Below are positions 21,389 through 62,197 of a stretch of 64,000 nt of DNA, one piece after another. Numbering within the stretch: position 1 is the first letter of the stretch; each line of letters begins with the position of its first letter. Location of the stretch: positions 1,550,001-1,614,000 of the forward strand of contig BCGN01000002.1 of the NCBI GenBank assembly GCA_001599295.1. Direction: 5' to 3'. Under the pieces are notes generated by a model. It searched no databases. It saw only the letters and a list, made by a program, of their open reading frames with translations, and was not told the DNA's origin. A program made the translations under genes and the position numbers. Source of the DNA: Sporopachydermia quercuum (taxonomy: Eukaryota; Ascomycota; Sporopachydermiomycetes; Sporopachydermiales; Sporopachydermiaceae).

Positions 21389-23011
21389 ATGCCTCAAATG
21401 AGAAGAAGAATTACAGTTCCTATTGGAACGAACAAAACACTAAATGATAAACTTACCCTTGANAATGGTACTGTAACTTTAAGAAATATATCAAATCCAC
21501 GACAAGATAGATACATCGTAGCACCTTCAGATTTCAGCAAACTTGTTAAATATGTTTCCGAGAATCCTCAGGATATTGGTTTGAATGATGAAAAAGAATG
21601 GAGTAATCTATTCAGGCTATTGAGATCATATAAAGCGACATTAGAGATCATATGGAGTACTGAAAGATCATCACAACTACCTGTACTTTTATTTCAACCG
21701 GAGGTTTCTGGTTTTCAGATACGAATCAACTCAAAAAATAAGAGCTTATTGTATGTTGAGATAAGAAAAGGAACTGTTGGGGCTCTGGAGTTGGCATGAA
21801 TTGATTGAATATTAATTTCTTATTAACTGAATTAAACCACAGGGATCTTTCACCGTTTAAGCATGCAATTCAGTCATTGACTGCTGAACCATTTTCAGCT
21901 TCTGTAAGTACTATTCTATTTTCCATCTTCATAAAAAAATAGAAGCAAAAAAATAATCTTAAAGAGACATATACTAATGGTATTGTAGCTCTTGATTCAG
22001 CCTACTGAAGACATCTACACTTTCTACTCAAAGGACAGACCAAGTTTTCATAAAGCATTCGGACTGAATAGTGAGTTTTCATATTCAGACAGCATATATA
22101 TACGCTTGACCGGTAACTCAGCTGAACTGGAATTATCGTGGCTTTCTATGTCTAATCTCCATGCTGATCGTCAAGTAAATGAGACTATTATATCTCCAGA
22201 TCCACGAATGAAAGCTGAATTTGGTTTATTACATGCTCATCCAACCGTTGATTATCTTTTAACTGTTTCTGGCGTGTTATATCCAATTTCTACTAACTCT
22301 GCACCTAGTAAAACACTTTTTACTGTTCCTATAGCTCACGATGTATTAGAGAGTGAAAAAGTAGATTGTCGATTGATCCAGCCAACTGGCTTACATCCTG
22401 AATTGAAGTGCAAGCTGTTTCCAGATACATTTAAAAGGCCTGATCCCAGTTGTGATCTGTATGCATTTTATACACTACCATCACCTTTCTTCTTAGACAG
22501 GTATCAATTACCTAATATGACAATAACAGGTGCATTGGATTTAGAAGCACCTGAGTATGCTACCGCATTATGGGGAGTTCAAGCTCTATCAAGTCCGTTA
22601 CCACTTGATTCCGAATGGACACTCCCTACTCATTTTCGTTATGCCGAACCTGGTGAAAGTGCTTATATTAATGTGACACTACCACAACCTCTANTATTCT
22701 TTGCATGTTTTCCTCAACCAGATGATTCCATAGATACAGAAGATCAATTGAAACTAGAGCAATCTCCATTTTATCATGAGCTGCTTGGTTTTGAACGATA
22801 CTTTCCTGATGACACAAGGTTCATTCATCTAAGATCAGAAGGCTCATTTCTACGAGCAAAACTACCAAGGGCCGAAGTTGCAATTGAATACCGAGTTGCT
22901 CTAGGCACAACGGTCACAGTGATACTATCCGTCATTTATATTCTGTGGAAACTAGTTTCTCCTTGTACTATCGGAAAAGCCAAAAAGGATTTGAAGGAAA
23001 AAACACAGTAA
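21389..23011 (+). CDS. PBN1: Pbn1, GPI mannosyltransferase I accessory subunit (three exons)
   Basis: Pbn1 (PIG-X homologue) is an ER membrane glycoprotein that stabilises Gpi14, which adds the first mannose to GPI precursors. The coding sequence is join(21389..21750, 21843..21903, 21989..23011), 481 aa. Intron 1 (92 nt) starts GTATGT and ends CAG; intron 2 (85 nt) starts GTAAGT, has TACTAAT and ends TAG. The joined frame reads through all three exons with matching phases. Family features: N-terminal MRRRITVPIGTN (yeast MVTRHRVTVLYNAP), then in exon 3 TGLHPELKCKL, CDLYAFYTLPSPFFLDRYQLP, LDLEAPEYATALWGVQAL, LPTHFRYAEPG, and a single C-terminal membrane helix (VALGTTVTVILSVIYILWKLV) with a short basic tail. 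Two Ns are in coding sequence. Continuous reading would stop after exon 1, so splicing is required. Confidence 0.92.
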
Positions 23012-31911: not shown

Positions 31912-33505
31912 CTTTGTCGATTTCTCTTCTACCGCGCACGCTTATTTACCCTTCTTTCTTCCTAATATTCTATAATCTTATTAAATGATAACGAATTTCT
32001 AACGACGCTTCTCTTATGGTTCCTTCACTAATCAGCAAAATTCAATTTATATAATCCTGACGACTAAGCTTGCTCTAAACCAAAATAATATAGCGAACGA
32101 AAGCCAATGCTGCTATACAATAAATTGAAACTGTTCTAATCTTTCTCAAAATTGTAAAAGCGAATGTACTGAACAGATATATTATCGTAACTATTATTTA
32201 AATTTGATTAAAATCCAAAAAATATTAAAAAAGAACAGATTCTCTCTCTCATCTATTACATTTATTTATCATATACTTGAAAGATGAACGTAGAACATTC
32301 AATTGGTTCTCCTCACTACAATGAGACAAATTGAAGAAACGAGCATCGATGACACCAACATACATGTCTACATTTTATTACTGCGAATCCAGGCCATTTG
32401 TTTGGTTTGTGCTCCCAAAAAGATCTTTATGCAGGCAATTAAGCTCTAACTTAGTGGAACACCAAAAATTTTGTTGGGGAGTTTAAATATCATTATTTCT
32501 GAAATTGCTTCAGAATACCCCCTTAAGCAGAAGCCGAGAAGATATATGAGTGTCTCAAGATAGGATAGAGATAATGGACGACCTACTGTGTGTGACCTAT
32601 AAAATGTATGTCCATAGAATTACCTATACATTCACTATACATAACTGTACAGCTATCGGTAAATATATGACGAACAAGAATTGGATATTTTCAAATCAAT
32701 AAGCAAATACTTAAGCCTGATTTTCGTTGGATTTGATAGTATTTTAGAGTGACTTTGATTTAAGTGTAATTGTCTCCATGATTTCTATTTTTCTGCAATG
32801 CGGACTGCACCATTCCTGCAGATTAAATGCAGGAACACTGTAGTTAAGAGGTGGCCATCATTTGTTCATACATTGCTTTTCTATCTTCATCAAAGTGCAG
32901 GCATATTCAAACTTCAAGAGCACGTAGAAAGTAAGGAACGTTTTCACATACTGAAATGGCTTACAGCAAAAGTTTGCCTTTTATCTGATACATATATATT
33001 ATCACCTTGTAGTTGCCAATCATGGAGGGTTTGCCAATTATGCACAATAATGCATGGTTTGAAGATCATAGAGGATTTGAAGAAAGGATTTTTCTTGGGA
33101 CACAACATACACATAAGAATGCCACTGAGAGTTGGGAATGCCGATAAATATTATTGATGATGACGAAGAGAAAGAAATACGTTAATGCCATTAGTTAGAT
33201 GATGTCGTATATGGAATGCTATGAATCATACCATGAATCATACGTCAATTATGGATGAAAATTTCAGTTGATTGGTTTTTTGTAGTGTATTTGTTCTAAG
33301 TAAAGACTAAGCTAGTTGATACCACTGATATTAGATGCGTAGTTGAATGAAGTTGTATAGTATGTTGGGTGAATACGAGGGTAATCCTGGTGGAATCATT
33401 GGAGCTTCTTTCCCCGTTGAGGTTCAAACGGAATTGTTTCCTTTGATTTTCAGTGTATCTGATGTCGTTGAAATCTCATTACTGAGATTAAAGATCGTGC
33501 ACGTA
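31912..33505. other. Intergenic region between MED21 and VMA22
   Basis: About 1.6 kb that is upstream of MED21 and downstream of VMA22. An ATG frame of 119 codons at 32798-33157 (+) is the longest; it has a mixed Cys/His/Trp-containing composition but no motif I know, and I do not call it. A 64-codon frame at 33347-33541 overlaps the VMA22 3' end on the other strand. Confidence 0.4.
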
Positions 33506-36148: not shown

Positions 36149-38350
36149 CACGTTCAGTAGTCAAATTCTCTTATATATATTCAATGTGCTTATTCACAAT
36201 GATTGAATCTCCTCAATTGAACCTCTGGTCTTTGGTGATTTGCCTGTGATTCGTTCACAGCTAATAGAACGGAANAGCTTGTTAACAACGTTCAAATGCC
36301 AGAAAGAATGCTTTATGATTAGACTTATACTTTTCGACAAACAGATCAAATTCAGTCCATATGATGTAGTATTTTGTTGATGTTTGTTTATTGATCTCTC
36401 TATTACGTCTGAATATAATTCCGTCACAAGAGAATACTTAATCAGACTAACCAATACTTGTTCATTTAGCAATGATTCAGTATCAAAGAAGATAATAGAA
36501 GCATAAAAACTACAATTAAAAACAACAAAAAAGAATCTATCTGAATCAAATGAACANCAGGAGAATCCCTTTGTTTATATTCTTTTGGCTCTAATCATTG
36601 AACATAGAAACATTCATTTCCTATTAGATTCAATGAGGATAATTAGTTGGAATTATTCTAAGGGAATGAGTTTTCTTTACGTGAAGTAAATAAGTTTCAA
36701 AACAAAACTTTAATGTGGAACGCAACAGATTTATACCAAAAATGGAAAATACATGTGAACTTTATTTGATTTCTATGGGAGATTTTGAAACCACTTTGAA
36801 TTGAACTTTATTTCCATAAAGAAATGAAGAATACTACACCTACCTTTTACGTAAGCTTGAGACGGTTTTTGATGAGATAATCCGATCTGAAGGGTAAGCA
36901 TGAGGAGAGATCAAGTTGCATTGATTTTGTTCTAAATTAATGGGCTTTATTGTAGCCAATTGATGATTGATTGTTTCATGATTTAGAAAAGAAATGAAAT
37001 ATATGAACCAGTATTTCAGTTGAATAGTGGGTAAGAGGCTTTCAGAAGGAGGTATATATCATATCACTGTTGATGTGATCCGAACGTTCTTTGATTCCAT
37101 CGATTCATAAGATTTGACAGATTTTAATAATTATTCCNGTCTTTGAACAATATCGTCTCTTTCCCTATTGACAATATCGTTGATTTCTTTCTATCTCCTG
37201 CATTGCGATTACTTGAGAAAGTATAAGGACTCGATGGCTCGCTTACAAAACAGGCTAATCCAATGGAATTTTCAGGTCTTACATCCTCCATCGATGTTAT
37301 AGTCTCATGGAATCCTATTATTCCACTTACGATTGAGTTGACTCCCAAAGGTTCATTCACTCTTCGTTGAGAATAATAATTATATTACTTATTATGGTAG
37401 GTCAATTCACCTTTTGGTACTATTCCGTTAAGTGAGATTGGAATTTTCTCAATAAATTGAATAAAAGTAAACAAACATTCTAACTCTGTTTTGAGACGCG
37501 CACAGGGATTATTGCATTCAATTGCAGCAAGATGCAGGAACTTTCCCTTTATTTTTAAGTCAACCTGTCTTAAGATTAACAAGTACTGAAAAAGTATGAA
37601 AAATAAATAAATCTTATACAAAACTGGAATTCTTCTTCAACGCGATAGCTTCAACTGTATTTCTACTTCTGGTAATAAACCTCTATGTACCATATCTCTT
37701 CTTCAATTGATAGATAGAGACAGAGGATCCAAGAAACAGACTGTAGTTGATCAGACGACTTAGCTCTCATGTCTCCTATTTTGTTTAAATCGTTCTTTAG
37801 TAGATGGAACTTCTTTGCTCTTAAAAACTATTAGCCTCAATTTTTTGTAACAGGTGATTTGAAATGAGAACCAGTTCTAATTATTGATCTGACTTTTCTT
37901 GAATCTTCAATTGGTTCATTATTTCTACTATTAATAATTTAGTCATGTATTTTGTTCACATCTGAAGGAACGCCAGTTTTATAATCTGTCTAAGCTATAC
38001 TTGTAAACTCAACGCTATATCAATAAATTTTATTACATCTATTCCAACCTTTTGCATCTCAAAGTCATATCGTAGCCATATTATGCTCAACTATTTTTCC
38101 TAACAGTGAAAACTGTCACCTTCTAGAATCAGTTGATTCATTACCTCATTTATCATCACGTCTCGTCTCACAACTAAAACATTTGAAATTCCAGTTAAGT
38201 TTTAAACTCGGAAATTAAGTTCTGAATTTGTACTAAAAGAGAAGTACCTTTAGAAGATAGAACGAGGAAACGCGAATTATTTGAAGCTTTTCAAAGTCCC
38301 AATTCAACTGTCAAATTCAATTCTCACATCTGGATATTCAATTTAACGAA
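36149..38350. other. 2.2 kb gene-poor region
   Basis: Upstream of the Ser-rich orphan and downstream of the WD40 gene (both minus). Minus-strand frames at 36194-36472, 37124-37360 and 37385-37621 have protein-like composition, but I could not join them with convincing splice sites or match them to a family. Three Ns fall here. Confidence 0.4.
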
Positions 38351-41300
38351 CTAAGTAATTGTTTTCAACAGGGATAATAATTCTTTAAGTAATGATTGTT
38401 TCTCCGCGTCCTGTAAGATGATTGACTTTGTTTCGATTTCAGATGTTAGCTTAGCTAATATTTTGCAAACGCGGTCAACTTCTACTTCTTTATCGATATC
38501 ATTGTCGAGAAGTTCAGGGGGTGGTGCTTTCAAACTTATACCTGGTTTTCTTTTGCTTAATTGTCTTCTCACTAGTTTCGTAGGAGGACTCGCCGGGGAT
38601 GTAGTAGTATAGTTTGTAGCTGTTGGCGATGGTGATCTTAATGGTGATCTATGTGGTGATCTTGGAGGTGATCTTGGAGGTGATCTGGATGGTGAATTAG
38701 AACGTGAAGGTGAACTTGTTCCAGATTGGGTTGGTGATTTATTGTATTTTGGACTGGCAGATGGTGATCTTCTGCCAGGTGAGCCCATTCTTGGTCTCAG
38801 TTCAGGTTTCTCGCCCATTGCATCAATAACTTCACTGCTAGTAAGAATCTTCCTCGCTGGTCGAATAGTTGTTTTTGGTAAAGATGAAGTAGGTGTAGAA
38901 CAGCCGCTGTTAAATCCACTACTCTTTCTCGTGCTAGTATTATTATTACCCACAGTAGGGCTATTATTTTGACTATTGGTTTCATAATCGTGAACACCAT
39001 TGTCTTCTTTTTCGTTTTCAAATGTCCATCGAAAGATACAACCATCAGTACTGGTGCTGACAAAGGAAATATTATTTGATCCACTTATTTCTTCAGTATC
39101 ATTCTTAATGGGAAGAAATCCAGTAATTGATGCACTATGTCCATAACAACATGCAAGTAAACTTCCAGTTGTCATTTCATAAGCTCTGATAGCTTTATCA
39201 GATCCAACTCCAAATAGTATATTCTGGTTGAAACCTTTGCCAGATTTGAATGTCGACATCTGTACGAAGCCTAGATTTACTAATTCTAATGATGATGATC
39301 CTGGTGACAAGTTGCCACTGCTAGCAGAATTCATACTTACATTACCTCCAACTGCACCAGGGTTATCTTTCAGTACTCTAAACATATTCTTTTGTTCACC
39401 AGTATTAACATCATGGACAAAAACTTGTTTGTCCAAAGTTGGAACGATCAATTCCATAGTTTCCTCATTAACGAATATGTCTAAAGGTGCTGACTTGAAG
39501 GTCAGTGTTCTAGTTAGTAGAAATGCAACATTTGGCTTGTCAGGATTCTTTTCATCTTTAGGAAGATCAACCAATTTGTAGATGAAAATGTTTCTATCTG
39601 ATGAACCTGTGATGAGCAATCTCTCTTTATGAATATATCGAATTATTAAAACTGATGCTTTGTTATCTGCAAGTGTTTGAATCAGTTCCCATCCAGATGA
39701 TGACGATGGGATGCCATTGGTATTAGATTTTTCATCATTGCTAGTCCAATTAAGTAAAACTTGAACTGTACGATCTCTTGACGCCGAAACCATTAAATAT
39801 GTCTTTATTTGGGTATTATTTTCTTTGTTTCTATTTCGCTTATATTTTGTATCTGTCTCATCCTTAACATCATTTTCTTCATGGCGTCTAGGATGTTCCT
39901 TATCGCCTGTCTCATTATTATTATCATTAGCTTCTGTGTCCATTGGATCTTCTCCATCACTACTGTTGGTATCTTTATTTCTATTGCTATCGTCCTTTTC
40001 AGAAGCTTTTGAGGCATTCTTTGAGCATAACTCAATGATGATTACATCGTTTACTTGTGAAGAGTGTGCTTTTATACGGACTATGTTGAATAGGTCCTTT
40101 TCGTGATCCTGATCTTTTTCAGAATATTCCTCTTTTAGTAATTTTGATGGAAACACCTGTAGTAAACCAAACCTATCACCAGCAACAGAGAATTTATCAC
40201 CAATCTTCAAACAACAAACCATATTTTCTAACATATCATCTTCTTGGTCACTTAATGGAATCTTAAAAGCAGATTTTGCTTGCTGGAAACTATTGTCCCA
40301 TAGTTTTGTTTCTCCATTACCGGACCATGACAAGAAGCTGTCTTGGTTCTCAGTATTCAAAATTTGTTGTATTCCACGAATTGCTGCTTCGTGACCAGAA
40401 GTTATAGTTTCTGTTTCGAAAGTTTTAGTATCTACCAATTCAATCTCCCGTTTGTTGCTTAGCACGCAAACTTTGCCTGGAGAATAAAGAAATCCACCAA
40501 CATATCCACTTTTGAAACTAACAGCTGATCCGGGGTTATTTGCTAATCCTGGTTGTAGTTTCAACTTTGACGATGCGTCAGGTTCATTCTCCTTCTCAAG
40601 GGGGTTATAATTCTCATTAGATGCTTTTGGATCCAGTTTCTCTTGTGAGTTGCTGATGCAATAGTTGTCNTTACTAATGACCAAGCTGAGATTTATTGTT
40701 TCGATCCAGTTTTCATTATTTTTTTCTCCTATCAGAAAAAATGAATCGTTATCATAGTCACATACCACATCTCTAATTGTCATGTTTATTTTTGTTTTGA
40801 GTTGCAATTTAGGGGCGTTGCCATCTTCACTTAATAAGAATACTTCACCAGAATCCGCACATATCACGATTGTATCTTCAGGCTCGATATAACAACAACA
40901 AACAAAGTTCAAACCGCCATACTTATTGCCTAGTAGTACATTACGTCCTCCTAATACAGATACTTTAGCTCTTGTATCACTTTCCGGGCATTTCCATTCT
41001 TTCACGTGTCTTAATCCTACTGATAAAATTGACTGGCCAAACGAATAGAGCCCTTGAATTGGTACAGTACACTTATTACTTGCAATAAGAGTAGCACTAG
41101 GATTTAAGCCAAGTCGTAGATTCCAAACATGAATGAAACCATCATTGGGAAAGCCTAATGATACTAATTTGTTGCCAGATGCTGTAAATGCCAACTGAGC
41201 AATACCAAATGAGTGCTGCTGTATTATAATCAAAGGGCTGTTACTATGTGTAGTAGCAGTTGAATAGATAAGAATTCGCGGTTTGTGACCTGATTCCCCA

Positions 41301-41665
41301 ACTGCTAACATTCGTCCAGATGGTGATAGGGCTAATGTTGAGATAACTTTTACTCTTTCTTTCACTGGAGACCTTTGAGGCTCCGATGCGCCATTTTTAA
41401 TATCTCCATCATTAACTGTAGTAAAATAAAATGATTGCTCACCATCTTTATCGACAACGACTCCTGCCCCTGCCGTATAAGCCAGAATACCATTGGAATT
41501 GCCAGAAAATTCAAGTTTATTAGCCGATGTTAAGCCTATTATTTGAGAGGCCTTTAATGCTGGTTGCAAATCTGATAGTCCAGCTATCTTAGGTGAGATC
41601 TGTAGGCCATTCTTGCTAGCAAGCTCTGGTGGTATAAATTTCCTGGTAGTAGGAGTAAATGCCAT
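38351..41665 (-). CDS. WD40 protein of the WDR62/MAPKBP1 type
   Basis: A 1104-aa protein with many WD40-like repeats arranged as in metazoan MAPKBP1/WDR62. The first propeller opens with a hydrophobic GNSNGILAYTAGAGVVV, then ALSPSGRMLAVGESGHKPRILIY and LVSLGFPNDGFIHVWNL...VGLRHVKEWKC, which track the metazoan [37 protein letters not shown] and GNRHIKFW. A second propeller includes LMVSASRDRTVQVLL, LLITGSSDRNIFIYKL and FVSTSTDGCIFRWTFE. An acidic spacer separates them. The last 170 residues are basic and Ser/Pro-rich with R-S-P-x repeats, then a predicted C-terminal helix (DRVCKILAKLTSEIE). Animal members scaffold JNK signalling and spindle poles; the fungal role is not known to me and I recall no S. 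cerevisiae orthologue. ATG 41665 is chosen over a GTG four codons upstream. Confidence 0.82.
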   Translation of the reverse strand: MAFTPTTRKFIPPELASKNGLQISPKIAGLSDLQPALKASQIIGLTSANKLEFSGNSNGILAYTAGAGVVVDKDGEQSFYFTTVNDGDIKNGASEPQRSPVKERVKVISTLALSPSGRMLAVGESGHKPRILIYSTATTHSNSPLIIIQQHSFGIAQLAFTASGNKLVSLGFPNDGFIHVWNLRLGLNPSATLIASNKCTVPIQGLYSFGQSILSVGLRHVKEWKCPESDTRAKVSVLGGRNVLLGNKYGGLNFVCCCYIEPEDTIVICADSGEVFLLSEDGNAPKLQLKTKINMTIRDVVCDYDNDSFFLIGEKNNENWIETINLSLVISXDNYCISNSQEKLDPKASNENYNPLEKENEPDASSKLKLQPGLANNPGSAVSFKSGYVGGFLYSPGKVCVLSNKREIELVDTKTFETETITSGHEAAIRGIQQILNTENQDSFLSWSGNGETKLWDNSFQQAKSAFKIPLSDQEDDMLENMVCCLKIGDKFSVAGDRFGLLQVFPSKLLKEEYSEKDQDHEKDLFNIVRIKAHSSQVNDVIIIELCSKNASKASEKDDSNRNKDTNSSDGEDPMDTEANDNNNETGDKEHPRRHEENDVKDETDTKYKRNRNKENNTQIKTYLMVSASRDRTVQVLLNWTSNDEKSNTNGIPSSSSGWELIQTLADNKASVLIIRYIHKERLLITGSSDRNIFIYKLVDLPKDEKNPDKPNVAFLLTRTLTFKSAPLDIFVNEETMELIVPTLDKQVFVHDVNTGEQKNMFRVLKDNPGAVGGNVSMNSASSGNLSPGSSSLELVNLGFVQMSTFKSGKGFNQNILFGVGSDKAIRAYEMTTGSLLACCYGHSASITGFLPIKNDTEEISGSNNISFVSTSTDGCIFRWTFENEKEDNGVHDYETNSQNNSPTVGNNNTSTRKSSGFNSGCSTPTSSLPKTTIRPARKILTSSEVIDAMGEKPELRPRMGSPGRRSPSASPKYNKSPTQSGTSSPSRSNSPSRSPPRSPPRSPHRSPLRSPSPTATNYTTTSPASPPTKLVRRQLSKRKPGISLKAPPPELLDNDIDKEVEVDRVCKILAKLTSEIETKSIILQDAEKQSLLKELLSLLKTIT
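38631..38690 (-). repeat. 12-nt tandem repeat coding for R-S-P-x units
   Basis: Five 12-base units of the form GGTGATCTNNNN on the plus strand (minus-strand reading: R-S-P-x) in the tail of the WDR62-like gene. Two units are identical. In-frame expansion of a disordered SP-rich tail. Confidence 0.9.
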
Positions 41666-42653
41666 AGTAATAACCACACGATCCTCTTTCCGATACTATT
41701 GATCAATCCAAGTCAAACACAACTACAACTCCATCTAATTAAAGTCTTTTCTTCTTACTCCTTTCCTTTATATTCAATAACCCAATGCAATTGAATTCTC
41801 ACGCCAAAGAGTCAAGAGACTCCAAGAGATTTAATCATCAGCTTTTACAAAAACCACATCTTAGCCAAAGAAGTAACCAAGTTTGATTCTCCATTTGATT
41901 ATTGTAATGCTTGCCAAATCAGAAGATGTAGAATCAAAAAAAAACTTAAAGTTCAGAAGCTTATGGATTATTTGGGTAAAAAGAAAACTTTGTATTGAAG
42001 TCTGATTCTTAATAAGGAAAATGGGTGATTCAATTGTATGATTCTTTAATAACAGTGCTAATGGAAACATTAAGTAGAAAGTGTCGAAGAGACTCGAGAA
42101 AGTAAATTGTTATGCTATTTCTAATACTGGGTTATGGCTGAAGCAAGCTTTAGGGGATTAAATGCATCGATGGTTTTCTATCGTCTCATCGATGGAATGT
42201 TGATTTCACATCGATTTGAAGTTCCAAAGGTTCGAAAACAGAATAAAGTTAAACTTTATTTATAGTTTCCAGTTTAATCTCTGAACTTAATGTTAAAGTT
42301 AAAGACCAATATAAACAAAAGCTAACGAACGACTGTTAATGTCCGGTAAGATAGGGCACTCCGCAATGCAAGTTTCATGCCATTTTTGCATATCATGCAG
42401 AGTAATAAAGGAAAACAGAATTTCTCGTGCATTGTTAGAAGATGAAATTCATTATCATATGTTCTTCATATCGCTTATATCAAAATACTCGTTTCGATAG
42501 AACGAAATAGGACCTAAAAGATGACTGATCAAAAGAAAAAAACAGGTTCGCTCAATCGTACTATTAGGAAGCAAAATAACATAAAATTGAAAGAATATAA
42601 AATTTTAGTCATGATCATTATATTAATTAACTAACAACCTTCCACTTCAATCT
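41666..42653. other. Intergenic region between WD40 gene and CCC2
   Basis: About 990 bases: the promoter of the WDR62-like gene and the 3' end of CCC2. No gene is seen. Confidence 0.45.
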
Positions 42654-47356: not shown

Positions 47357-48442
47357 TCAAGATGTCAATTTCCAAATATTTGTTTTCCCATCATCCCCAC
47401 CTGTTATTAGGCACTCATCACTACCTATAGTAGCCCATTGAACACAGTTTACTTCATAAACACCATGACATCTATCAGCAGTTGCAACCACACTCCAATT
47501 TTTCTCTTCATTTTCTTCGTATACAACTAATTTTCCGTCAGCCCCAACAGTGGCAATCCTGTTACTCACTTTGCTCCAACTTACACCATATAAGCTTCTT
47601 TTACAAACTTTTGGTAGCGTTGATGAAAGTTCCCATTCTTCTTTTATTGGATCCGAGCTTCGAAATGTTGATGGCATTTTCCCTAGAAAAGCACTTGTAC
47701 CTCCTAGGCTGCTATCATTGGCATTAATATTTTGATATTTTCTATTGGAACCAACTCTTTCATAGACTTCAACATCTGCTTCATCGGTAACTGCTACCAA
47801 ACGTGCAGGCGTACTTTCATTGGAAAAATCTATCTCCCAGACAGTGCCTTTATTGATAGCAAGCTCACTGACACATACCCAATCACCTTCATCTTCATCT
47901 TCTCTGTATAGCCTAACAGTATCATCATAAGAACTACTAGCTACTAGTTCTTCAGATGGGTGCCATCTCACACATTTCACATCTTGACTATGCTCTTGTA
48001 ACACACTAATACATTCAAATTCTTCATTACTATCATCAGCTTCCCAGATCCACACACTTTTATCTCTAGAGCAACTAGCCAAAAAAAACCCATTATAACT
48101 CCAATCAACTGCTTTCACTTCATTCTCATGACCTTCAATGATAGCTAAAAGTTCCCATTCGTCATCTTCTTCACTCCAGATTGAAATAGTAGAGTCAAAA
48201 CTACCCACAGCAATAGATGGCGCTTCAGTGCCTGTTGTATCCGGTTTCCAACTCAAGCTTCTGCAACTTCGTTTATGTGCATCTTCAAGTACGGTTACCA
48301 GCTGCAGAGTATTCAAATTGTATATTCGGCAAGTCTTATCCCCTGACGCTGTAGCTAGTAATGGCTTCCTACTATGAACAGATACATCCCATACTCGATC
48401 TTTATGTCCTTCGAGACTTGTTACTAGTTTCAGTTCAATCAT
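47357..48442 (-). CDS. CIA1: Cytosolic iron-sulfur assembly protein Cia1
   Basis: Cia1 is a seven-bladed WD40 propeller in the CIA targeting complex (with Met18 and Cia2) that delivers Fe-S clusters to cytosolic and nuclear apoproteins. The 361-aa product has blade after blade of the family: [112 protein letters not shown] (quoted in part) and the closing [13 protein letters not shown]. The stretch [11 protein letters not shown]...[14 protein letters not shown] is nearly identical to yeast and human CIAO1. Length is a little longer than S. cerevisiae (330 aa), from an insertion between blades 5 and 6. It ends a three-gene run of metal/cofactor genes (CCC2, CIA1, CYC2). Confidence 0.97.
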
Positions 48443-48942
48443 TCTTTTTCCAGTTCCAAACTGCGGTACTTATTAAGCTCCTTTGATCATAAATAGTCTC
48501 ATACCAGTAGAAATCAATGAGTAATTTAATAGATTGCTGAATTTGCTTCACTCACTCAAATCTTTCTCTTATGCTGAATAATGTATCCGCAAACCGATCT
48601 TTAGATGCCCCCCATTATCCTGTTTACCATCATAAAGCAACCCACAGCTGAGAATCTTAAAGAACACACACACGTATAATTTTATTTATGTTCTCCGGTT
48701 TATGGTCTCCGTTCTCAAAAAGAAAAGCGGAAGTGTTGTGAGGGTAGTTCTAAATACCAATAGTTACCGTTGCTCGAAGTGCCTGAAGGTTTTTAGGTAT
48801 TTTCATCATTCACAAAACATGAAGTAGAAAAATTGAATCAAATAAAGTTATTGATAATCTTATTATTGTGAAATATCAGAATATAAAAGCAAAATTTTCT
48901 TGATGATAAGGAACAGCGAAGGTGGTAGGGTAGAGTAGTAAG
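48443..48942. other. Divergent promoter region CIA1 / CYC2
   Basis: 500 bases between divergent starts. No gene seen. Confidence 0.45.
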
Positions 48943-50634
48943 ATGTTTAGACATTTATCTCGACGAATTACTGCTAGGTCTAATGTTAGACTGAAAATTC
49001 AGATCCAACATGAAGGGATTCATAGCATCTCTTTAGTATTCCAGAGGAGTAAAGGAACTTCTGGGACGCCAGACGAAGAAAAAGAAAATGAGAGTTCAGG
49101 GTCTTTATCTCATTCTGTGGACAAAAGTAAGAAATCTCACGAAGAGCAAAATAAGAATGAGGGTGAGGAGCAATCATTCACTTTATCATCGTCCTTATCA
49201 ACATCTTTATTCCGGAAGCAAAGCTATGTCCCTTCAAAAGTTCATCCAAGGGTAACTTACGAACAACCACCACCACCTAAATCAATTTTCACCAAACCGA
49301 ATGTTCGTAAATGGCCTCTAAGACGGCTTATTTTACCTTTCCTAGGAATTGCAGGAGGCATTTGGACACTTTATCATATCAATTTGGCAATAGATGCATC
49401 ATCTGAAGGTAGACCGTTTCTTTCCTCAGCCAAAGAACCAAATGCTCTTGATCCTGATAAATTCATGACATATGTTATTTCTTACAAAGAGCAAATTTCA
49501 CCTGATCATTATCTCATCGAGTTGTCACCTACCATCAAAGGATATAATGCATTATCCAAATCACAGCTTTATTGGAATTCTAAAAGACTGTGGTCTATTG
49601 AAATCAAGCAACCCGAAATCCAGATAGTTAGAAGGTATACACCTTTACCATTCTCAGTTTACCAAGCACCCTCTGTGAAAGGATTTGAAGAAATCAAAAC
49701 ACCGCCTGTAATCAGGACTTATGATCCTCTTAAAGATGAAGGTCGTATGTTACTATATGTTAAAAAGTATGGCGATGGAGAATTATCTAGATGGCTTGTA
49801 TCAAGACCTGTTGGTTATAGATTGCAAGTGAGAGGAAAGTTCACGGAGTTCAAGTTCCCTTATTCTCCTTTAGATGAGCTGGAAGCGAGATCTGCTATAA
49901 CTGATGATCCATTACTACTTCCAGGGGATGCACCAGTCGATTACTTACAATATCCAAGACCTGATAATATCATATTTTTTGCTGCAGGCACAGGCATTGC
50001 CCCAGTTTTACAACTGCTTTATTCCCCAAATCCACCACGAGGCTTTACCACCGTCCATTACTCGGTTAGATCTCGTGATGAAATTCCACTTTTGAGGTAT
50101 ATGAAGATAGCTGAAGAGATTGGGAGAGCAAAGTTCATTTTTCACATTGATTCGGAAACTTCTAACCTTTCAATTAAAGATGTTCCGATTCCTGTGGCTT
50201 CTGAGTATAGAGAACGAATTTCCAAATGGGACAAAATTGTAGAAGAGGAAGAAATCATCAAACAGCAACTTAAAGAAAAATTACAAAATAAACAAAAAGA
50301 ATTATCAATGGCAGAGAAAACTGGAGTTCCAACTGATGTTTCTAAGCTTCTATTGGAAAAGAAACAACCTTTACCCAGTGAAGTGCCTTTGGGTAGCTAT
50401 ATTGACAATTTTGAAACTAACAGGAAACACGTTAAAACAACAGTCTATCGTACTGCTATTGAACAGGCACTGGCTGAAAAGAATCTACCGAAAGATCCAG
50501 CATTAGCATTAGTTTGTGGGCCTGACGGCTACATTAAATATGTTGCGGGACAAAAGGAATATGATGGTCCGGGACCTATTGGAGGTTTATTGAAAGCAAA
50601 AGGCTGGAATGAAGATAATGTTGGAAAGATGTGA
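48943..50634 (+). CDS. CYC2: Mitochondrial FAD oxidoreductase Cyc2-like
   Basis: Cyc2 is an inner-membrane flavoprotein that supplies reducing power for heme attachment to cytochromes c. The 563-aa product starts with a basic Arg/Ser leader (MFRHLSRRITARSNVRLK) typical of mitochondrial import, then a Ser/Lys/Glu-rich part, one membrane helix after KWPLRRLILPFLGIAGGIWTLY (about residues 125-150), and a ferredoxin-reductase-type domain: FAD region VRRYTPLPFSVY, LLYVKKYGDGELSRWL, the NAD-binding start IIFFAAGTGIAPVLQLLY and a terminal VCGPDGYIKYVAG. The RxY(T/S) and GxGIAP motifs support the cytochrome-b5-reductase fold. A Lys/Glu-rich insertion (about residues 425-475) interrupts the NAD domain. 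The one-to-one assignment to CYC2 rests on domain order and the membrane anchor; a generic b5-reductase-like protein is the alternative. Confidence 0.82.
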   Translation: MFRHLSRRITARSNVRLKIQIQHEGIHSISLVFQRSKGTSGTPDEEKENESSGSLSHSVDKSKKSHEEQNKNEGEEQSFTLSSSLSTSLFRKQSYVPSKVHPRVTYEQPPPPKSIFTKPNVRKWPLRRLILPFLGIAGGIWTLYHINLAIDASSEGRPFLSSAKEPNALDPDKFMTYVISYKEQISPDHYLIELSPTIKGYNALSKSQLYWNSKRLWSIEIKQPEIQIVRRYTPLPFSVYQAPSVKGFEEIKTPPVIRTYDPLKDEGRMLLYVKKYGDGELSRWLVSRPVGYRLQVRGKFTEFKFPYSPLDELEARSAITDDPLLLPGDAPVDYLQYPRPDNIIFFAAGTGIAPVLQLLYSPNPPRGFTTVHYSVRSRDEIPLLRYMKIAEEIGRAKFIFHIDSETSNLSIKDVPIPVASEYRERISKWDKIVEEEEIIKQQLKEKLQNKQKELSMAEKTGVPTDVSKLLLEKKQPLPSEVPLGSYIDNFETNRKHVKTTVYRTAIEQALAEKNLPKDPALALVCGPDGYIKYVAGQKEYDGPGPIGGLLKAKGWNEDNVGKM

Positions 50635-50871: not shown

Positions 50872-51974
50872 TCATCTTTGTTCTTTTCTTATTGGTACTT
50901 TGATACCCTGAGAGGCGAACTTCGCACTCAATTTTGTACTTTCAATAACACCAGGAAACTTTTTGGCTGAATACACTTTGAAGACATCAGAAAATACTGA
51001 TGAAGTACAAGGAGTAGGATCATTAGGAAGTCTTTCACCAGGGCTTATAGTTACGCTTGTGGGATAAACCGATGGACTGCGTTCTGGTTTTCTACCTTTA
51101 TCAGTACCATCGAAATCATCGAAAGAATAATCACCATAGCCCTCTAATACATTGTCAGATATTGTAGAATCGATAGACTGAAGCATGTCGGAAAGATCAA
51201 AAAGATTGAATTTAAATCTAAACTCTCCATCAAATCTTATTGACAGGTCATACAGAATGAACCATATTCCTAGTTCATCTTTAAGATCATATAGTTTATA
51301 AGCTGTGGTTGCTAGTGATCCTATCAGGTTTCGTATTGGAGGAGCAACAGCTGCACCAGAATTGGCTGAGCTGCTTGACATTCTGCGACTCAAAGAAGAA
51401 GTAGACGAGGAATTGTTTGATATTACTTCATTGCTGTTTTGTAGGCGTGCTAGTTCATTATCATTTTTTGAAGTTGACTGTAAGTGATCACTAGACTCAA
51501 CTTCAAGCTCAGATTGACCCTGGACAAATCCTAGATTTTTCTTCATATCACTCGACCAAAGTTCTACCATTAGAAAATAATGGGTAGGGATGATATCGCT
51601 GTAAAGGGAAAAAANAAGAAAAAGTTTGATTGCGGTTAGTAACCTGAGCAATTCAATATCAAACTTGATTTCAGTGAAGCACGAATATTCTAACCTCAAA
51701 AGGTTATCATGAGATATGAAAAAAAAACTTACGCAGCAGGCACTTCTTGACCATTCTTATAGATTCTCAATCTTATACAAGGAGTAGGCGATACTTGCCT
51801 TCGATCTTTGTCACCTAATCCGCACATTCGGGCTCTGAGTGGTTGTTGTTCCACAGTCAGTCTATACTCAAAATCTATTTTGTGTAATCGATTAGTAATA
51901 TTCAAAAATCAGAATCCAATCCATGTTAAATTGTCAACTGTCAAACTAATGAAATTCTACATACCCCCGTTCAT
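50872..51974 (-). CDS. velB: Velvet-domain regulator, VelB-like (three exons)
   Basis: Velvet proteins are fungal DNA-binding regulators that couple development, dimorphism and secondary metabolism. The coding sequence is complement(join(50872..51598, 51733..51874, 51965..51974)), 292 aa. Exon 1 is a 10-base mini-exon (MNG plus one base). Intron 1 (90 nt) starts GTATGT with TACTAAT; intron 2 (134 nt) starts GTAAGT with TACTAAC and ends CAG. The joined protein has the N-terminal velvet half YRLTVEQQPLRARMCGLGDKDRR (in part; residues 7-29) and HYFLMVELWS, a Ser/Asn-rich insertion (about 80-140), then RNLIGSL, KLYDLKDELGIWFILYDLSIR, FRFKFNLFDL and the C-terminal VYSAKKFPGVIESTKLS ... QGIKVPIRK. 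An insertion splitting the domain, plus the NLIGSL and FPGVIEST wording, are VelB traits. An N lies in intron 2. Reading without splicing would lose the first half of the domain. Confidence 0.93.
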
Positions 51975-53582
51975 TGTAATATTCAATTTTTCTATCTCAA
52001 TAGAGCAGCTTCTCGATGCAAGCTTATCTTATCGAGAGAGCCTCAGTTTACGCTGCTAGTCAACGAATGAACAAGTAACCTATTGATACAACTGGTGATT
52101 TCAGATCTAGCAATAGTATTATCCGTAAATTCAGCTTAGCTCAATCCACTTCTGTATCATACACCATGAATCACTTTATCGCAATGGGCTTTATCAGTAT
52201 TGTCAGATGATTCAGCAAATAGTTTTTCAGTATTTCATTATTGTTCAATTCTTGGTGGCATTCAATCACATGTCCTTTGAAAAGCTTCTTTCTTCCTTTT
52301 CTGCGGATCAGCTGAAATATTTATTCATAGGGTTCTACTGAAAGAAAGAAAAAAAATGAGAAAAAAAACTACTTGTTTGTTCGAAAACAGTCTCTAATAG
52401 TGAGTATCTGTTGTCCTCAATCCTGGTCTACTTCTTAAAGAATTTAATCTGAGATTATCTCTAACCTTCAACATTGTCTCCCTTTTTATTTTTCTTCCTC
52501 GGTGCTACGTCCATGGAACCTATAAAAGTTGTCTTAAATACTAACGATGGCTAATAGTTTACAACTTCAACCAGTGCGATTAGAGTAGCGTTCAATAATC
52601 AAAGTACCTGCTAAATATGTGTTCAGCCGTATTTTTATAGCCTTATTATGGGGCTTGAATATAGTGAATCACCAAAAGAGGAAATTCCCATCAGTAAGCT
52701 AGAACAATACTATCATTTCAGAACACAACAAAGCAGTAAAGTAAAGTTCTCGAATTCAGATTCCATTTACTGCAAGGAAATAAGTTACGATAAAGATGCA
52801 GGAGCCAATAATTGTTGTATACCTAAATATGTATGAATCCTCTACAGTTAGAAATCGGTGACCAACAATTTGTTTACTGGGAATGGTTTGGAGTATGATT
52901 CCTTTTCATTACTGTTAGTTCCTTTCTTGGTAAATTAATTTCTAAGTCTTGGCTACGTTGCAATTGAAGGAGCTAAAACAATTCTGGAAAGAGCATTTTT
53001 TGCAGGTATCTATTATGATGTACATATGTTTCAAAAAAGAGGCTGACAGTTTTTAGACAAACTAGTACTGAAACTAAATTTTAGTCTCTATTACTTGCAT
53101 ACTACAGCTTATGTATTGCAGCTCGAACTAATTGATAAGGTTGCCAAGAGGAAGATTAGTGATAGAGTAAAAAAAGTATGGTTTATTTGGGTTGACAACA
53201 ACTTAAGTGTTGGTATAATTGACAGATATTTTCCTTTATACAACTAATGTAGCTGATTCGTTGCATACATATGCATATTTCGTAGATGTTAATTATTTCA
53301 TATTCTTAAGTGAGGGTCCATAAAACCACACTATCAGAGAAAACGAAAGGTATTGTTATGTCGGGTAAGATATTTGATATGATCATGTGATATATGAGCC
53401 GGGGTATTTCTGGTGATGTTTCTCAGCTAATCAGGTGCCTGAATTACTTGATTTGAAAAGAGATTCAATTGATTAGAAGTTTAAGTAGAATAAATAAATA
53501 TGGATTATTTATATTGATAAAGGACCCTAAGTAGGTTCGGATTAAGGTGATCCAAGTACGTGTGAAAATTCCACTGTCGAAG
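51975..53582. other. 1.6 kb divergent region velB-like / MSW1 with exon-like blocks
   Basis: The plus strand between about 52648 and 53248 holds several short open blocks next to splice-like signals: MGLEYSESPKEEIPISKLEQ from an ATG at 52648, ELKQFWKEHFLQ ending at a CAG/GTATCT junction near 53005, and LELIDKVAKRKISDRVKK ending in a stop near 53248. I could not join them in matching phases nor link them to a family, so no gene is called. Otherwise this is promoter sequence for both flanking genes. Confidence 0.35.
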
Positions 53583-54728
53583 ATGAAGATATCAAGATCT
53601 GGAATAAGAGAAGTATTTAGAGGGTTCAGTTGTTCATCTACGGTTCTGACTGGAGCACCCACCGTGAATAGAACCGGAATTGTTCCAGCATCAAATTCGG
53701 TGATTTTTTCAGGAATTCAGCCTACCGGAGTTTTTCATCTTGGAAACTATCTAGGTGCCGTAAATAATTGGCTCACCTTATCACAGTCTGTGGATTCAAG
53801 CTCGAAATTGATATTCATGGTGGCAGACCTTCATGCTATAACTGTTCCAAAAGATCCAAAAGAATTGAAAGAATATCGAGAAAAGGCAATTGCTTCCATA
53901 CTCTCTGTTGGATTGGATCCCAAAAACTGCATAATCTATTATCAGTCTGAAATTCCTCAACATTCTGAGCTTTCATGGATTTTGTCTTGTATCACAAGTA
54001 TGAGTTATCTTAATAGAATGACTCAATGGAAATCTAAAGCAAACCTCAAGGAAAACACTTCAATATCTGATTCAAAAACACTCAAAAATCTTAAACTTGG
54101 TCTGTTTTCATATCCCGTGCTACAAGCTGCTGATATACTTCTTTACAAGGCAACACATGTCCCAGTAGGTGAAGATCAAGCCCAACATCTAGAACTTACA
54201 AGACAAATTGCTACTACCTTCAATTCAAGATTCGGTAACTTTTTTCCCTTACCTGAGACATTGTTAACGCCCACGTCAAAAGTACTCTCTTTGAGAAATC
54301 CTGAAAAGAAAATGTCGAAATCAGATCCAAACAAAAATGCAACAGTTCTTCTTACCGATGATGAAGATACCATTGCATCTAAAATCAGGAAAGCGGTTAC
54401 TGATTCTATTCAAGGCCCTTTCTTGTATGATCCGGAAGTACGACCTGGAATTTCCTCGTTGCTATCAGTTGTTTCTGGCTTAACTAGGAAGCCCATCGCT
54501 GACATAGTAATTGATATCAATGAAAATGCCAAAGTGAAAAATCACCAACAATTCAAGGAGTACGTGACAGATGTTGTAATTGATAGCTTACGGAACCCAA
54601 GAAAAGAGTATGAGAGACTAGTTAATGATAAATCTTATTTAAAGAAGATATCTGATGAGGGAGCGGGAAGAGCCGGGGATATTGCCTCAATTGTTCTCGT
54701 TGATGTTAAGAAATTGGTGGGCTTGTAA
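53583..54728 (+). CDS. MSW1: Mitochondrial tryptophanyl-tRNA synthetase
   Basis: Class I aminoacyl-tRNA synthetase charging mitochondrial tRNA-Trp. The 381-aa protein has a short basic Ser/Arg leader (MKISRSGIREVFRGFSCSS), then the bacterial-type TrpRS core: IFSGIQPTGVFHLGNYLGA with the HIGH-equivalent HLGN, LIFMVADLHAITVP, LSWILSCITSMSYLNRMTQWK, YPVLQAADILLYKATHVPVGEDQAQHLEL (in part) and the KMSKSDPN signature. Length matches yeast Msw1 (379 aa). ATG 53583 is chosen: the frame extends 12 codons upstream only to a GTG, and the shorter form gives a good import leader. It is divergent from the velvet gene. Confidence 0.96.
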   Translation: MKISRSGIREVFRGFSCSSTVLTGAPTVNRTGIVPASNSVIFSGIQPTGVFHLGNYLGAVNNWLTLSQSVDSSSKLIFMVADLHAITVPKDPKELKEYREKAIASILSVGLDPKNCIIYYQSEIPQHSELSWILSCITSMSYLNRMTQWKSKANLKENTSISDSKTLKNLKLGLFSYPVLQAADILLYKATHVPVGEDQAQHLELTRQIATTFNSRFGNFFPLPETLLTPTSKVLSLRNPEKKMSKSDPNKNATVLLTDDEDTIASKIRKAVTDSIQGPFLYDPEVRPGISSLLSVVSGLTRKPIADIVIDINENAKVKNHQQFKEYVTDVVIDSLRNPRKEYERLVNDKSYLKKISDEGAGRAGDIASIVLVDVKKLVGL

Positions 54729-54938: not shown

Positions 54939-56663
54939 TCATACAACAGAGAAATTCTGTTTAATNCCTTGCAACTCAAGTTCTCGCTCCCTCAGATGCC
55001 TTTTCCTCTCATTGATCTCACTCTCAAGTATTCCTTCTATTTCGTTCAGCTGAGCTTGCTCCATAAACAGTTTCCGAGCCTTTGTAGAGTCAAATTGTTT
55101 CACTGAAGAACTGGGTACAGACTTTGCAATTTCTCTGTTCTGGTAGGATCGTTGATCATGAAAACCACTAAAATATTGAAATTAGAAAAGAAAAAAAGAA
55201 AGAAAAAAAGCAAGCCAGTATCAATTATGGGAATTAAGAGAATGACCATCAGTTTATTCGAGAGGTATTCGACATACAGTAATGAATCTTGAGATATCAA
55301 AGGATTCTGAATAGAGAGTCTGGACGATCTGTAACGTTCGTACAGCACATTATGAGTTATCTCCTTGAACTCGTTTAAATGAGAACCAAAAAGGACTGCT
55401 CTCAATGCCAAAAAATCGGAATGATCAGGATCATCAACTAAAGAAGTCAGTATTAACTTGTCCTGAAAACATTTAATCGTCCATTAAGTGATTGCTCCAT
55501 ACCTCTTACTTTTCCCCAGGGATAATCAATATAGTAAAACACTTTCCCATCTTTCTCAACTTTTGTGTCGCTACCAATTACTGCAAAAGGAACCAATTCT
55601 TCCAAATGAGAGTTTCCTTCAATAGAATCGCTATCACTAAGTTCATTCTCGAACGAGTAGACAGGTATGGTCAGTTTTTTGATATCATTCCGGATCAGCT
55701 CTTTGCAACGCTTCAATTCAGTTTCTGTCAAACAATCTGCTCTGCCTATAACAGGAATAATATTCACATAACCTGACAATGCTGTCATGAAGCTAATATC
55801 AAGTTCCCTCAATCTGTACCGNAAAAAAGAACATGCCCAGTTTGTCAGTATACATTTCATTGCTGAAAACACAAAATCATACGACTACTGAAAAGTCAAA
55901 CTCATACCCTCTACCAGTGGGTTGAATGAAGTATAGTGCAACGTGTACTCTGTTATCAACAAATTTAGGATTTCGATTAATTCGGCATTCTTCAGTCAAA
56001 ACGTCATTGAATTGATCTTCAATGTATGCAACAATTTTAGAGCAGCTACTTCTGTCAGCATGTTGACAAGACTTGGAAATTATTTGAGCATTGATGATGC
56101 CTATTTCAACATATTTCAGTATTGGTTCCACTGTAGGTTATATTTCATACCAGTATGTATTGTTGATATTATCACCAAATCCAGGAGTATCAACGACATT
56201 CAAGCTGATTGGGGTAGAGTTTTTTTCTACAACTTCTAGTTGAGAGCACTGGTTAGTCAATGTTATAAGTACTTGCTAGTTGGAGATCAGTAAGCCAATC
56301 GACATAGTTTCCTTGTCAACCTTACCGGCATGATATGTTTTGATTGACATTCCTGGGTCGCTGTCAGCATTCTCTGGGGAAATAGTTCCTCTATCTATTA
56401 CATTTTTATTACAAAGAGTGTTAATAAATGTCGATTTCCCTGTACCAGATCTCCCACATATTAGTATCGTAAGTTGAAGGCCTCTTTTAACCATTTTACG
56501 CCTTCTCATCTCCTCAGGAGTAATCTAAGTATTTGAACAGTTAATTTCCCAAACCTACAAACACTGTGGATAATAAACAAAGCATCTTTCCATTACAACA
56601 AGTAAAATCCTTTCAGCTTCCAGTCAATCTTACGCTTGAAAACGATTCCCATTTATGACTCAT
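54939..56663 (-). CDS. Septin GTPase (seven exons)
   Basis: Septins polymerise into filaments at the division site and hyphal septa. The coding sequence is complement(join(54939..55167, 55278..55437, 55503..55813, 55908..56045, 56151..56235, 56326..56524, 56634..56663)), 383 aa. Six introns of 65-110 nt start GTAAGA, GTAAGG, GTATGA, GTATGA, GTATGG, GTATGT; all phases agree and several branch sites (TGACTAAC, ATACTGAC) are clear. The product has the basic stretch RRRKMVKRG before the P-loop GRSGTGKST (34-42), G3 DTPGFGD (92-98), G4 as GRAD (174-177, usually AKAD), septin unique element YPWGKVRVDDPDHSDF, ALRAVLFGSHLNEFKEITHNVLYERYR (in part) and a C-terminal Glu/Arg coiled coil. The RRRK entry suggests the Cdc11/AspA-like class, but it is divergent (a Cys pair replaces the usual CW after the G3 region). 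Exon 4's acceptor has a close alternative; exon 1 is short. Confidence 0.88.
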
Positions 56664-61206: not shown

Positions 61207-62197
61207 ATGTCTAATACAACTGGAGGTGAGGTGTATTCCAGTGGTTCCAGCACTGATTTAAGCGGTATGATTGAAATTTGTTTCTTTTTTATCAATTCAA
61301 TTTTCTTATACGTTGTTTTGTTGAAACTCTGATGCTAACTATTAATTCAAGAGTATTGGATGGACTGGTTTCTAGCAGCAAAAGGGAATGAGTATTTTTG
61401 TGATATAGATATAGATTATATAACAGACAGGTTTAACCTGACTGGATTGAATGCAGAAACAGACCATCTGTCGTTAGCTATTGATGTGATTACAGATAAT
61501 CTAAGTAAGTTCGTGATGGTTACTTGAAAGATTGTTGAGAAATATTAGACTAATAAGAATACTAACCTAAGTAGCGGAGGAGTTTTCGGCAGATATAAAG
61601 GATCAGATTGATTCAACAGCAAGATACGTATACGGGTTAATTCATGCTAGATTTATTATCACATCTCGTGGCTTACAAAAGATGTTTGATAAATATCGGC
61701 ATGGGGATTTCGGATACTGTCCTAGGGTTCATTGCAGTTTACAACCTTTGCTACCTGTCGGATTGAATGACCAGCCTAATGTTTCATCGGTCAAACTATA
61801 TTGTGTGAAGTGTGAAGATCTATATAATCCCAAATCACCAAGACATCAAGCTATAGATGGCGCATTTTTTGGAAAATCATTCCCGGCAATGTTCTTTCAA
61901 GTTTATAAACATCTAGTTCCAGCACATCCTGTTGAAAGGTTCGTACCCAAGATATTTGGCTTTAAGATGCACGATTATGCAAATTTAGCTAGGTGGCAAG
62001 AGAAGAAGCGCAGGGAACTTAATAAAAAACTGACAACCGTTTATGGTTTACAAACAGAGAATACGCCTGGTGGCTATTTATTGCCGGACGTCGTGACCAG
62101 CAGTAGCAATGAAAAGAAGAAATTTAAAACTAGTGACAACAAAACAACCCCATCCAGTAGTCATAAGACGAGTGGAAGGAAGGAACCTACTAAGTAA
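61207..62197 (+). CDS. CKB2: Casein kinase 2 regulatory (beta) subunit, three exons
   Basis: CK2 beta dimerises through a zinc finger and holds two catalytic subunits. The coding sequence is join(61207..61264, 61352..61504, 61575..62197), 277 aa. Intron 1 (87 nt) starts GTATGA with CTAAC; intron 2 (70 nt) starts GTAAGT with TACTAAC. The spliced product reads EYWMDWFLAAKGNEYFCDID, DYITDRFNLTGLN, then YVYGLIHARFIITSRGLQKM, GDFGYCPRVHCSLQPLLPVG with the first zinc cysteines, VKLYCVKCEDLYNPKSPRHQAIDGAFFG (in part) with the second pair, and FVPKIFGFKMHDYA. The Ser/Lys/Thr-rich tail is variable. The acidic insertion of yeast Ckb1 is absent, so Ckb2 is the closer label, though single-beta species make the distinction moot. 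CTG at 61438-61440 encodes the conserved Leu of FNLTGL, indicating standard decoding. Confidence 0.94.

Follow-up and report, generated by a model that had tools for sequence, protein, structure and literature searches.

A gene on the minus strand of the 64 kb stretch of DNA analyzed here (the window), at positions 50872-51974, is, judging from its sequence, real and spliced, encodes a protein of the VelB type, and is presumably expressed; velvet proteins bind DNA and regulate development in fungi. In our reading, which we consider very probable, it encodes a native budding-yeast VelB that was inherited from the ascomycete ancestor, kept in this lineage and lost in S. cerevisiae and most of its relatives. 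Removal of two introns would give a 292-residue protein consisting almost only of the velvet domain. By homology, this protein would bind DNA through a loop encoded by exon 2 (K26, R28, R29, and R19) and would form homo- or heterodimers through surfaces that include G144 and L274; its partner would most likely be a second velvet protein encoded in the same genome, with VeA as the best candidate. The expected output would be a developmental program, such as hyphal growth, sporulation, spore survival, or the choice between asexual and sexual development.

Structure of a spliced velvet gene

The gene is composed of three exons (10 + 142 + 727 = 879 nt) with matching phases, which encode 292 amino acids and a stop codon, and of two introns:

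51974-51965, minus strand: exon 1, 10 nt; codons 1-3 and the first base of codon 4
51964-51875, minus strand: intron 1, 90 nt; GTATGT...TACTAAT...TAG, with the branch-point-like site beginning 23 nt before the 3' end
51874-51733, minus strand: exon 2, 142 nt; first half of the velvet domain and DNA-binding loop, with R19, R28, and R29
51732-51599, minus strand: intron 2, 134 nt; GTAAGT...TACTAAC...CAG, with the corresponding site starting 43 nt before the 3' end
51598-50872, minus strand: exon 3, 727 nt including the stop codon; remaining velvet domain, with an insert (residues 78-138), a second long stretch (residues 187-249), G144, and L274

The initial annotation had proposed three exons with matching phases and a 10-base first exon, and its coordinates proved correct to the base; the two motifs that it quoted, RARMCGLGDKDRR and FPGVIESTKLS, are both present in the protein. 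The ATG of exon 1 is the only one that follows the preceding stop codon in its frame. Read-through of intron 1 from this ATG gives MNGGM followed by a stop, and no ATG follows the last in-frame stop of intron 1 until Met20, which lies inside the DNA-binding loop; therefore, exon 1 or another upstream exon is required for the full domain. The second junction is located inside the stretch that aligns with VelB, and the alignment is gapless at this point, while the first junction lies just N-terminal to the domain and is based on the splice signals and the MNGGM read-through stop. The only ambiguous base (N) of the gene, at 51615, falls in intron 2, leaving the exons free of Ns. Very short first exons are ordinary in budding yeasts, and ACT1 of S. 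cerevisiae has one of 10 bases.

Both strands of the 64 kb were searched with a strict short-intron pattern (GTATGT or GTAAGT, TACTAA[CT], and YAG; Ns counted as A). This search identified five candidates in the window, compared with a mean of 0.75 and a maximum of 3 in 60 first-order Markov sequences. Two of the five correspond to the velvet introns, two others end at the opening of an ORF (21904-21988 at the second PBN1-like ORF and 61505-61574 at the CK2-beta-like ORF), and the last (33788-33726) lies in a region without an assigned gene. Both velvet introns carry yeast-type signals, as is the case at two other genes of the window. It should be noted that the DNA-binding half of the protein is easily missed in annotation because of the 10-base first exon and the two introns, and that a gene caller that ignores introns would miss it.

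Assignment to the velvet family and relationship to VelB

The spliced protein matched the Pfam Velvet profile (PF11754) with 226.5 bits (cut-off 25; E-value 6.2e-67) in one stretch covering profile positions 1-236 of 237. With the same profile, the open frame around exon 3 without splicing (50872-51756) reached 154 bits. The profile match is decisive, and chance ORFs were rejected as an explanation.

Searches against solved structures gave E-values of 3.6e-43 (151.2 bits) for VelB, 1.5e-21 (80.3 bits) for VosA and 1.2e-14 (57.7 bits) for VeA, the references being A. nidulans VelB (4n6r chain B), and VosA and VeA (4n6q and 9i2s); the fourth and last match up to an E-value of 1 was at chance level and involved only the Ser-rich insert. 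Identity to A. nidulans VelB amounts to 88 of 171 residues in three aligned blocks (51.5%). By these scores and by the insert, rather than by a tree, since one VelB, one VosA, and one VeA were compared and VelC was not among them, the protein is nearer to VelB than to VosA or VeA. A VelB-like velvet protein with a Ser/Asn-rich insertion splitting the domain as in VelB had been suggested at the outset, together with a search against the Pfam Velvet profile, and this description is borne out by the profile match, by the VelB-best scores, and by the position of the insert, found at residues 78-138.

The likeness to A. nidulans VelB includes a near-identical DNA-binding loop, the C-terminal AKKFPGVIEST block, equivalents of R71, R80, R81, G240, and L331, and an insert at the equal place in the domain. 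The two proteins differ in the length of the insert (103 residues in the alignment with VelB, 99 in the papers, vs. 61 here), in the sequence before the aligned start (59 residues vs. 7 here), in the residues at the insert boundaries, which are changed here, and in the stretch before the last conserved block (24 residues vs. 63 here). VosA and VeA of A. nidulans share the domain family and the loop, but they gave lower scores, and VosA has five residues at the place of the insert.

No second velvet match was found in a Pfam scan of 27 of the 38 window ORFs of at least 120 amino acids (among the 11 ORFs outside the scan, nine overlap a larger ORF, and 32759-33157 and 36194-36574 overlap none). 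Similarly, tblastn of the velvet protein against the window revealed no convincing second locus (next best E-value 1.0). Scans of viral and prokaryote contigs (two each) gave 5, 53, 36, and 197 pattern matches, none of which was confirmed as a velvet relative; this null result says little because the patterns were derived from the velvet protein alone. The absence of viral and prokaryote relatives is as expected.

Residues linked to DNA binding and dimerization

According to the available text of an alanine scan of A. nidulans VelB, residues R71, R80, and R81 are indispensable (PMC13389560); in the alignment to VelB they correspond to R19, R28, and R29 of the protein described here. In the same alignment, G144 and L274 correspond to G240 and L331, described in the accessible part of another study as needed to form dimers, with L331 playing just a small part in the dimer with VosA (PMC12077163). 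Since R19, R28, R29, G144, and L274 are all present, these known requirements of a DNA-binding, dimerizing velvet factor are retained. Three of the four positions given by VosA K37, K39, R41, and K42 are basic (K26, R28, and R29), and the K37 position is occupied by G24, with Gly in VelB too. The protein would, by homology, bind DNA and act on target genes of its own.

A VelB-type insert and a second long stretch

VelB is reported to be the only A. nidulans velvet protein with a long insert within the domain (PMC12614781, available text), comprising residues 132-231 (PMC3876986, available text). At this position, where the insert of VelB is disordered, the protein described here has 61 low-complexity residues (78-138), including 18 Ser and 7 Asn, while VosA has 5 residues (its chain residue 78 is aligned, then 84). 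The same account of the insert, in its available part, describes a conserved start in fungal VelB proteins (mostly a basic residue followed by His) and, for ascomycetes, a central Thr at the end of the insert and a 15-residue Ser-rich motif at its start; the boundaries are worded there as usual features ("mostly," "in most cases") and not as a condition of membership (PMC12614781). Here, the insert starts with V-Q and then G, the basic-His boundary being absent, and I139 takes the place of VelB T235, probably the Thr of that description. Residues 78-92 read GQSELEVESSDHLQS, with Ser at 4 of the 15 positions.

A second long stretch, absent from the initial annotation, comprises residues 187-249, between RFKFNLFDL and SSVFSDVF, before the last conserved block. 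Counted from the alignments, it measures 63 residues vs. 24 in VelB, 8 in VosA, and 32 in VeA; it thus exceeds its counterpart in A. nidulans VelB by 39 residues and that in VeA by 31. This stretch is rich in Ser, Asp, Gly, and Pro. Both the altered boundaries of the insert and the 187-249 stretch are possibly new, but they could also be general features of the Sac-Tap-VelB clade (Chen et al., 2024; PMC10845976), which, in the available text, shares both subphylum and sub-family with this protein. From the descriptions of that clade, it would be the expected home of the velvet protein.

Genomic neighborhood

The velvet gene is embedded among the following features:

47357..48469, minus strand: CIA1-like WD40 protein; best solved relative Ydr267cp (2hes_X, E-value 3.4e-85)
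48934..50634, plus strand: CYC2-like, 566 amino acids; neighbor on the 3' side, with a weak NAD-binding Pfam match (E-value 3.8e-4, 21.5 bits, cut-off 22)
51975..53582, no strand: intergenic region of approximately 1.6 kb, divergent, common to the velvet and MSW1-like genes
53535..54728, plus strand: MSW1-like, tryptophanyl/tyrosyl-tRNA synthetase family; neighbor on the 5' side (tRNA-synt_1b, E-value 6.5e-72)

Gene names in the neighborhood are given from Pfam domains, position, and comparison with known yeast genes: 48934..50634 is probably CYC2, from the weak domain match and its position, and 53535..54728 is presumably MSW1. The gene order is CCC2-like (-), CIA1 (-), CYC2-like (+), velvet (-), MSW1-like (+), septin (-), HIR2 (-), CK2-beta (+), and ARG3-like (-).

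By its best matches, the window carries a budding-yeast (Saccharomycotina) gene set, in agreement with the initial annotation, and Spb1, Med21, Cia1, HIR2, Pmt1, and Qcr7 types are among these matches. The Spb1-like protein scored 1037 bits with 6elz, the S. cerevisiae sequence, vs. 871 and 796 for the next two full-length fungal sequences. The Med21-like protein scored 127 bits with its best match vs. 61 and 58 for the next, and the Qcr7-like protein 112 to 104 bits with its top chains, presumably budding-yeast ones, vs. 88 for the next. The PMT protein of the window is nearest to Pmt1, and the HIRA-type protein scored higher with HIR2 (298 bits) than with HIR1 (193 bits). The CK2-beta-like part matched only named entries, none clearly from yeast, and for this reason CKB1 and CKB2 are not told apart.

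On S. cerevisiae chromosome IV, CIA1, MSW1, and CCC2 lie together (YDR267C, YDR268W, and YDR270W), as do CYC2, HIR2, and CKB2 on chromosome XV (YOR037W, YOR038C, and YOR039W); these regions are presumably sisters of the whole-genome duplication. Gene order in the window resembles an interleaved, unduplicated version of the two, and the velvet gene is part of it. The SMF1-HRP1, APA2-QCR7, and PBN1-SPB1 neighborhoods of S. cerevisiae would fit the same picture, the domains in the window having been assigned by Pfam. A literature search on this synteny returned nothing; the sequence matches directly back Ydr267cp and HIR2 (vs. HIR1), and the other correspondences are probable.

The region 51975..53582 is likely a promoter region. 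It contains no VosA-type 11-mer within two mismatches, and in the entire window CTGGCCAAGGC was matched 4 times with up to two mismatches vs. 4.87 matches expected. Binding of the velvet protein to its own promoter through the VosA 11-mer was rejected, since the matches are not above chance and none lies upstream of the gene.

Composition and genetic code

The GC content of the velvet gene is 0.389 (0.355-0.421 in the other genes of the window) and its GC3 is 0.276 (0.247-0.349 in the others). Its codon usage fits that of the pooled window genes worse than random draws do (2 of 1000 draws were as low; z = -3.2), and 3 of 18 other genes deviate more, namely CIA1 (-4.2), CWC27 (-3.6), and the CK2-beta part (-3.3). 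Composition shows no clear signature of foreign origin or contamination.

All four CTG codons of the velvet gene align with Leu in VelB, which makes the usual code consistent and a CTG-Ser lineage unlikely; the lineage of Saccharomycopsis fibuligera reads CTG as Ser. In the aligned parts of five genes, 6 of 8 CTG codons align with Leu, the others with Met and Thr, and none with Ser or Ala; these counts are small, the QCR7 and CIA1 blocks used contain no CTG, and SPB1 and CIA1 are represented by part of the alignment only. A reading of CTG as Ser or Ala was rejected, as CTG aligns mostly with Leu and never with Ser or Ala.

Alternative explanations

The atypical codon usage and the absence of the basic-His and Thr boundaries speak against a native VelB. 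The former, together with the patchy presence of velvet genes in Saccharomycotina, could indicate that the yeast lineage first lost the velvet genes it had and later gained this one by horizontal transfer from a filamentous fungus. We consider such a transfer very improbable, as the intron signals are of the yeast type common to the neighbors, GC and GC3 match the other genes, and three housekeeping genes exceed the codon deviation of the velvet gene. In addition, the insert boundaries and the 187-249 stretch are unlike VelB, and 51.5% identity over the aligned parts gives no hint of recent transfer from the A. nidulans lineage. This evidence may be compatible with an old transfer. A chimeric or contaminated assembly, in which the velvet gene would be foreign to the yeast, hardly deserves credence: single ambiguous bases, 23 in all, are scattered through the window, yet no run of Ns surrounds the velvet gene, yeast-type genes flank it at distances of less than 0.25 kb and approximately 1.6 kb, and intron signals and GC are the same as elsewhere in the window.

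The missing boundaries also bear on the question whether a VelB acquired by descent has been rewired, having lost the dimer with VosA and working only with VeA or as a homodimer. In the available text on A. nidulans and Verticillium dahliae, the VelB insert favors pairing with VosA and is dispensable for pairing with VeA (PMC12614781), and, in Saccharomycotina, the VosA clade does not belong to the dominant ones (Chen et al., 2024; PMC10845976, available text). Both fit the loss of the basic-His boundary and of the Thr, as does the long stretch between the last two conserved blocks, far longer than in VelB and VosA. However, this is one sequence only, an insert with its Ser and Asn residues is still in place, G144 and L274 are retained, and the same stretch reaches 32 residues in VeA, its length varying in the family anyway. 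We regard such rewiring as rather unlikely. That the changed insert boundaries, together with an acidic, Ser/Gly/Pro-containing stretch that lengthens a loop, have given the VelB of this lineage a different pairing rule is a speculative proposal that we likewise judge improbable. If it were true, the CYC2-MSW1 address would let the loss of velvet control be traced gene by gene through budding yeasts.

For the native VelB that we favor, a mode of action mainly with VeA is a reasonable guess from this one sequence, because the insert is dispensable for VeA pairing and because VeA and VelB are dominant in Saccharomycotina.

Velvet genes in budding yeasts

Published statements on velvet in budding yeasts, as far as their available text goes, conflict. 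A 2017 paper (PMC5309816) and a 2026 review (PMC13006574) state that velvet is absent from budding yeasts. In contrast, velvet genes are described in part of the Saccharomycotina genomes, with VeA, VelB, VelC, and VosA clades, of which VeA and VelB dominate, and ancestral presence followed by later losses has been inferred (Chen et al., 2024; PMC10845976). Saccharomycopsis fibuligera offers a precedent for velvet-domain genes in a budding yeast that has been in print since 2016; unlike the locus described here, it represents a velvet expansion, with 12 genes (PMC5106798, available text). The view that budding yeasts lack velvet, still in print, is the reason why the gene had appeared surprising and novel in the initial annotation, a claim preceded by both Chen et al. 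(2024) and the S. fibuligera report. The gene adds a further member to a known family in Saccharomycotina and, as such, is no surprise. No velvet deletion in a budding yeast was found among the titles of the literature matches listed, and the word "velvet" gave no match in the main text of a study of 1154 yeast genomes (PMC12322030).

A VelB that looks native, at a compact yeast locus, lends support to the view that some budding yeasts keep velvet. The locus is also a tractable place to study which processes velvet governs in a yeast and what took over in lineages that lost it. The syntenic address for following velvet loss is possibly new.

Other features of the window

The septin gene (approximately 55100-56600, minus strand) appears as three or more pieces that differ in frame, the P-loop part included, suggesting either several introns or a broken gene; its best matches, within approximately 1.5 bits of each other, are a chain named only Septin, Cdc11, and Shs1. 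The single ambiguous bases of the window form no runs, and some lie within coding frames, such as those at 24390 and 24508 of the SPB1-like gene. Scans of the window for tRNAs (ARAGORN with the bacterial code) and Rfam families returned nothing.

The ORF at 38351-41695 (minus strand) encodes a 1114-residue WD40 protein whose best Pfam matches, well below the curated cut-offs, are two MABP1/WDR62 propellers; S. cerevisiae is not known to have a protein of the MABP1/WDR62 type. Finally, a 441-residue ORF without a Pfam match (17296-18621, minus strand) is located between the APA/QCR7-like genes and the PBN1-like gene, a position at which S. cerevisiae presumably has LRE1.
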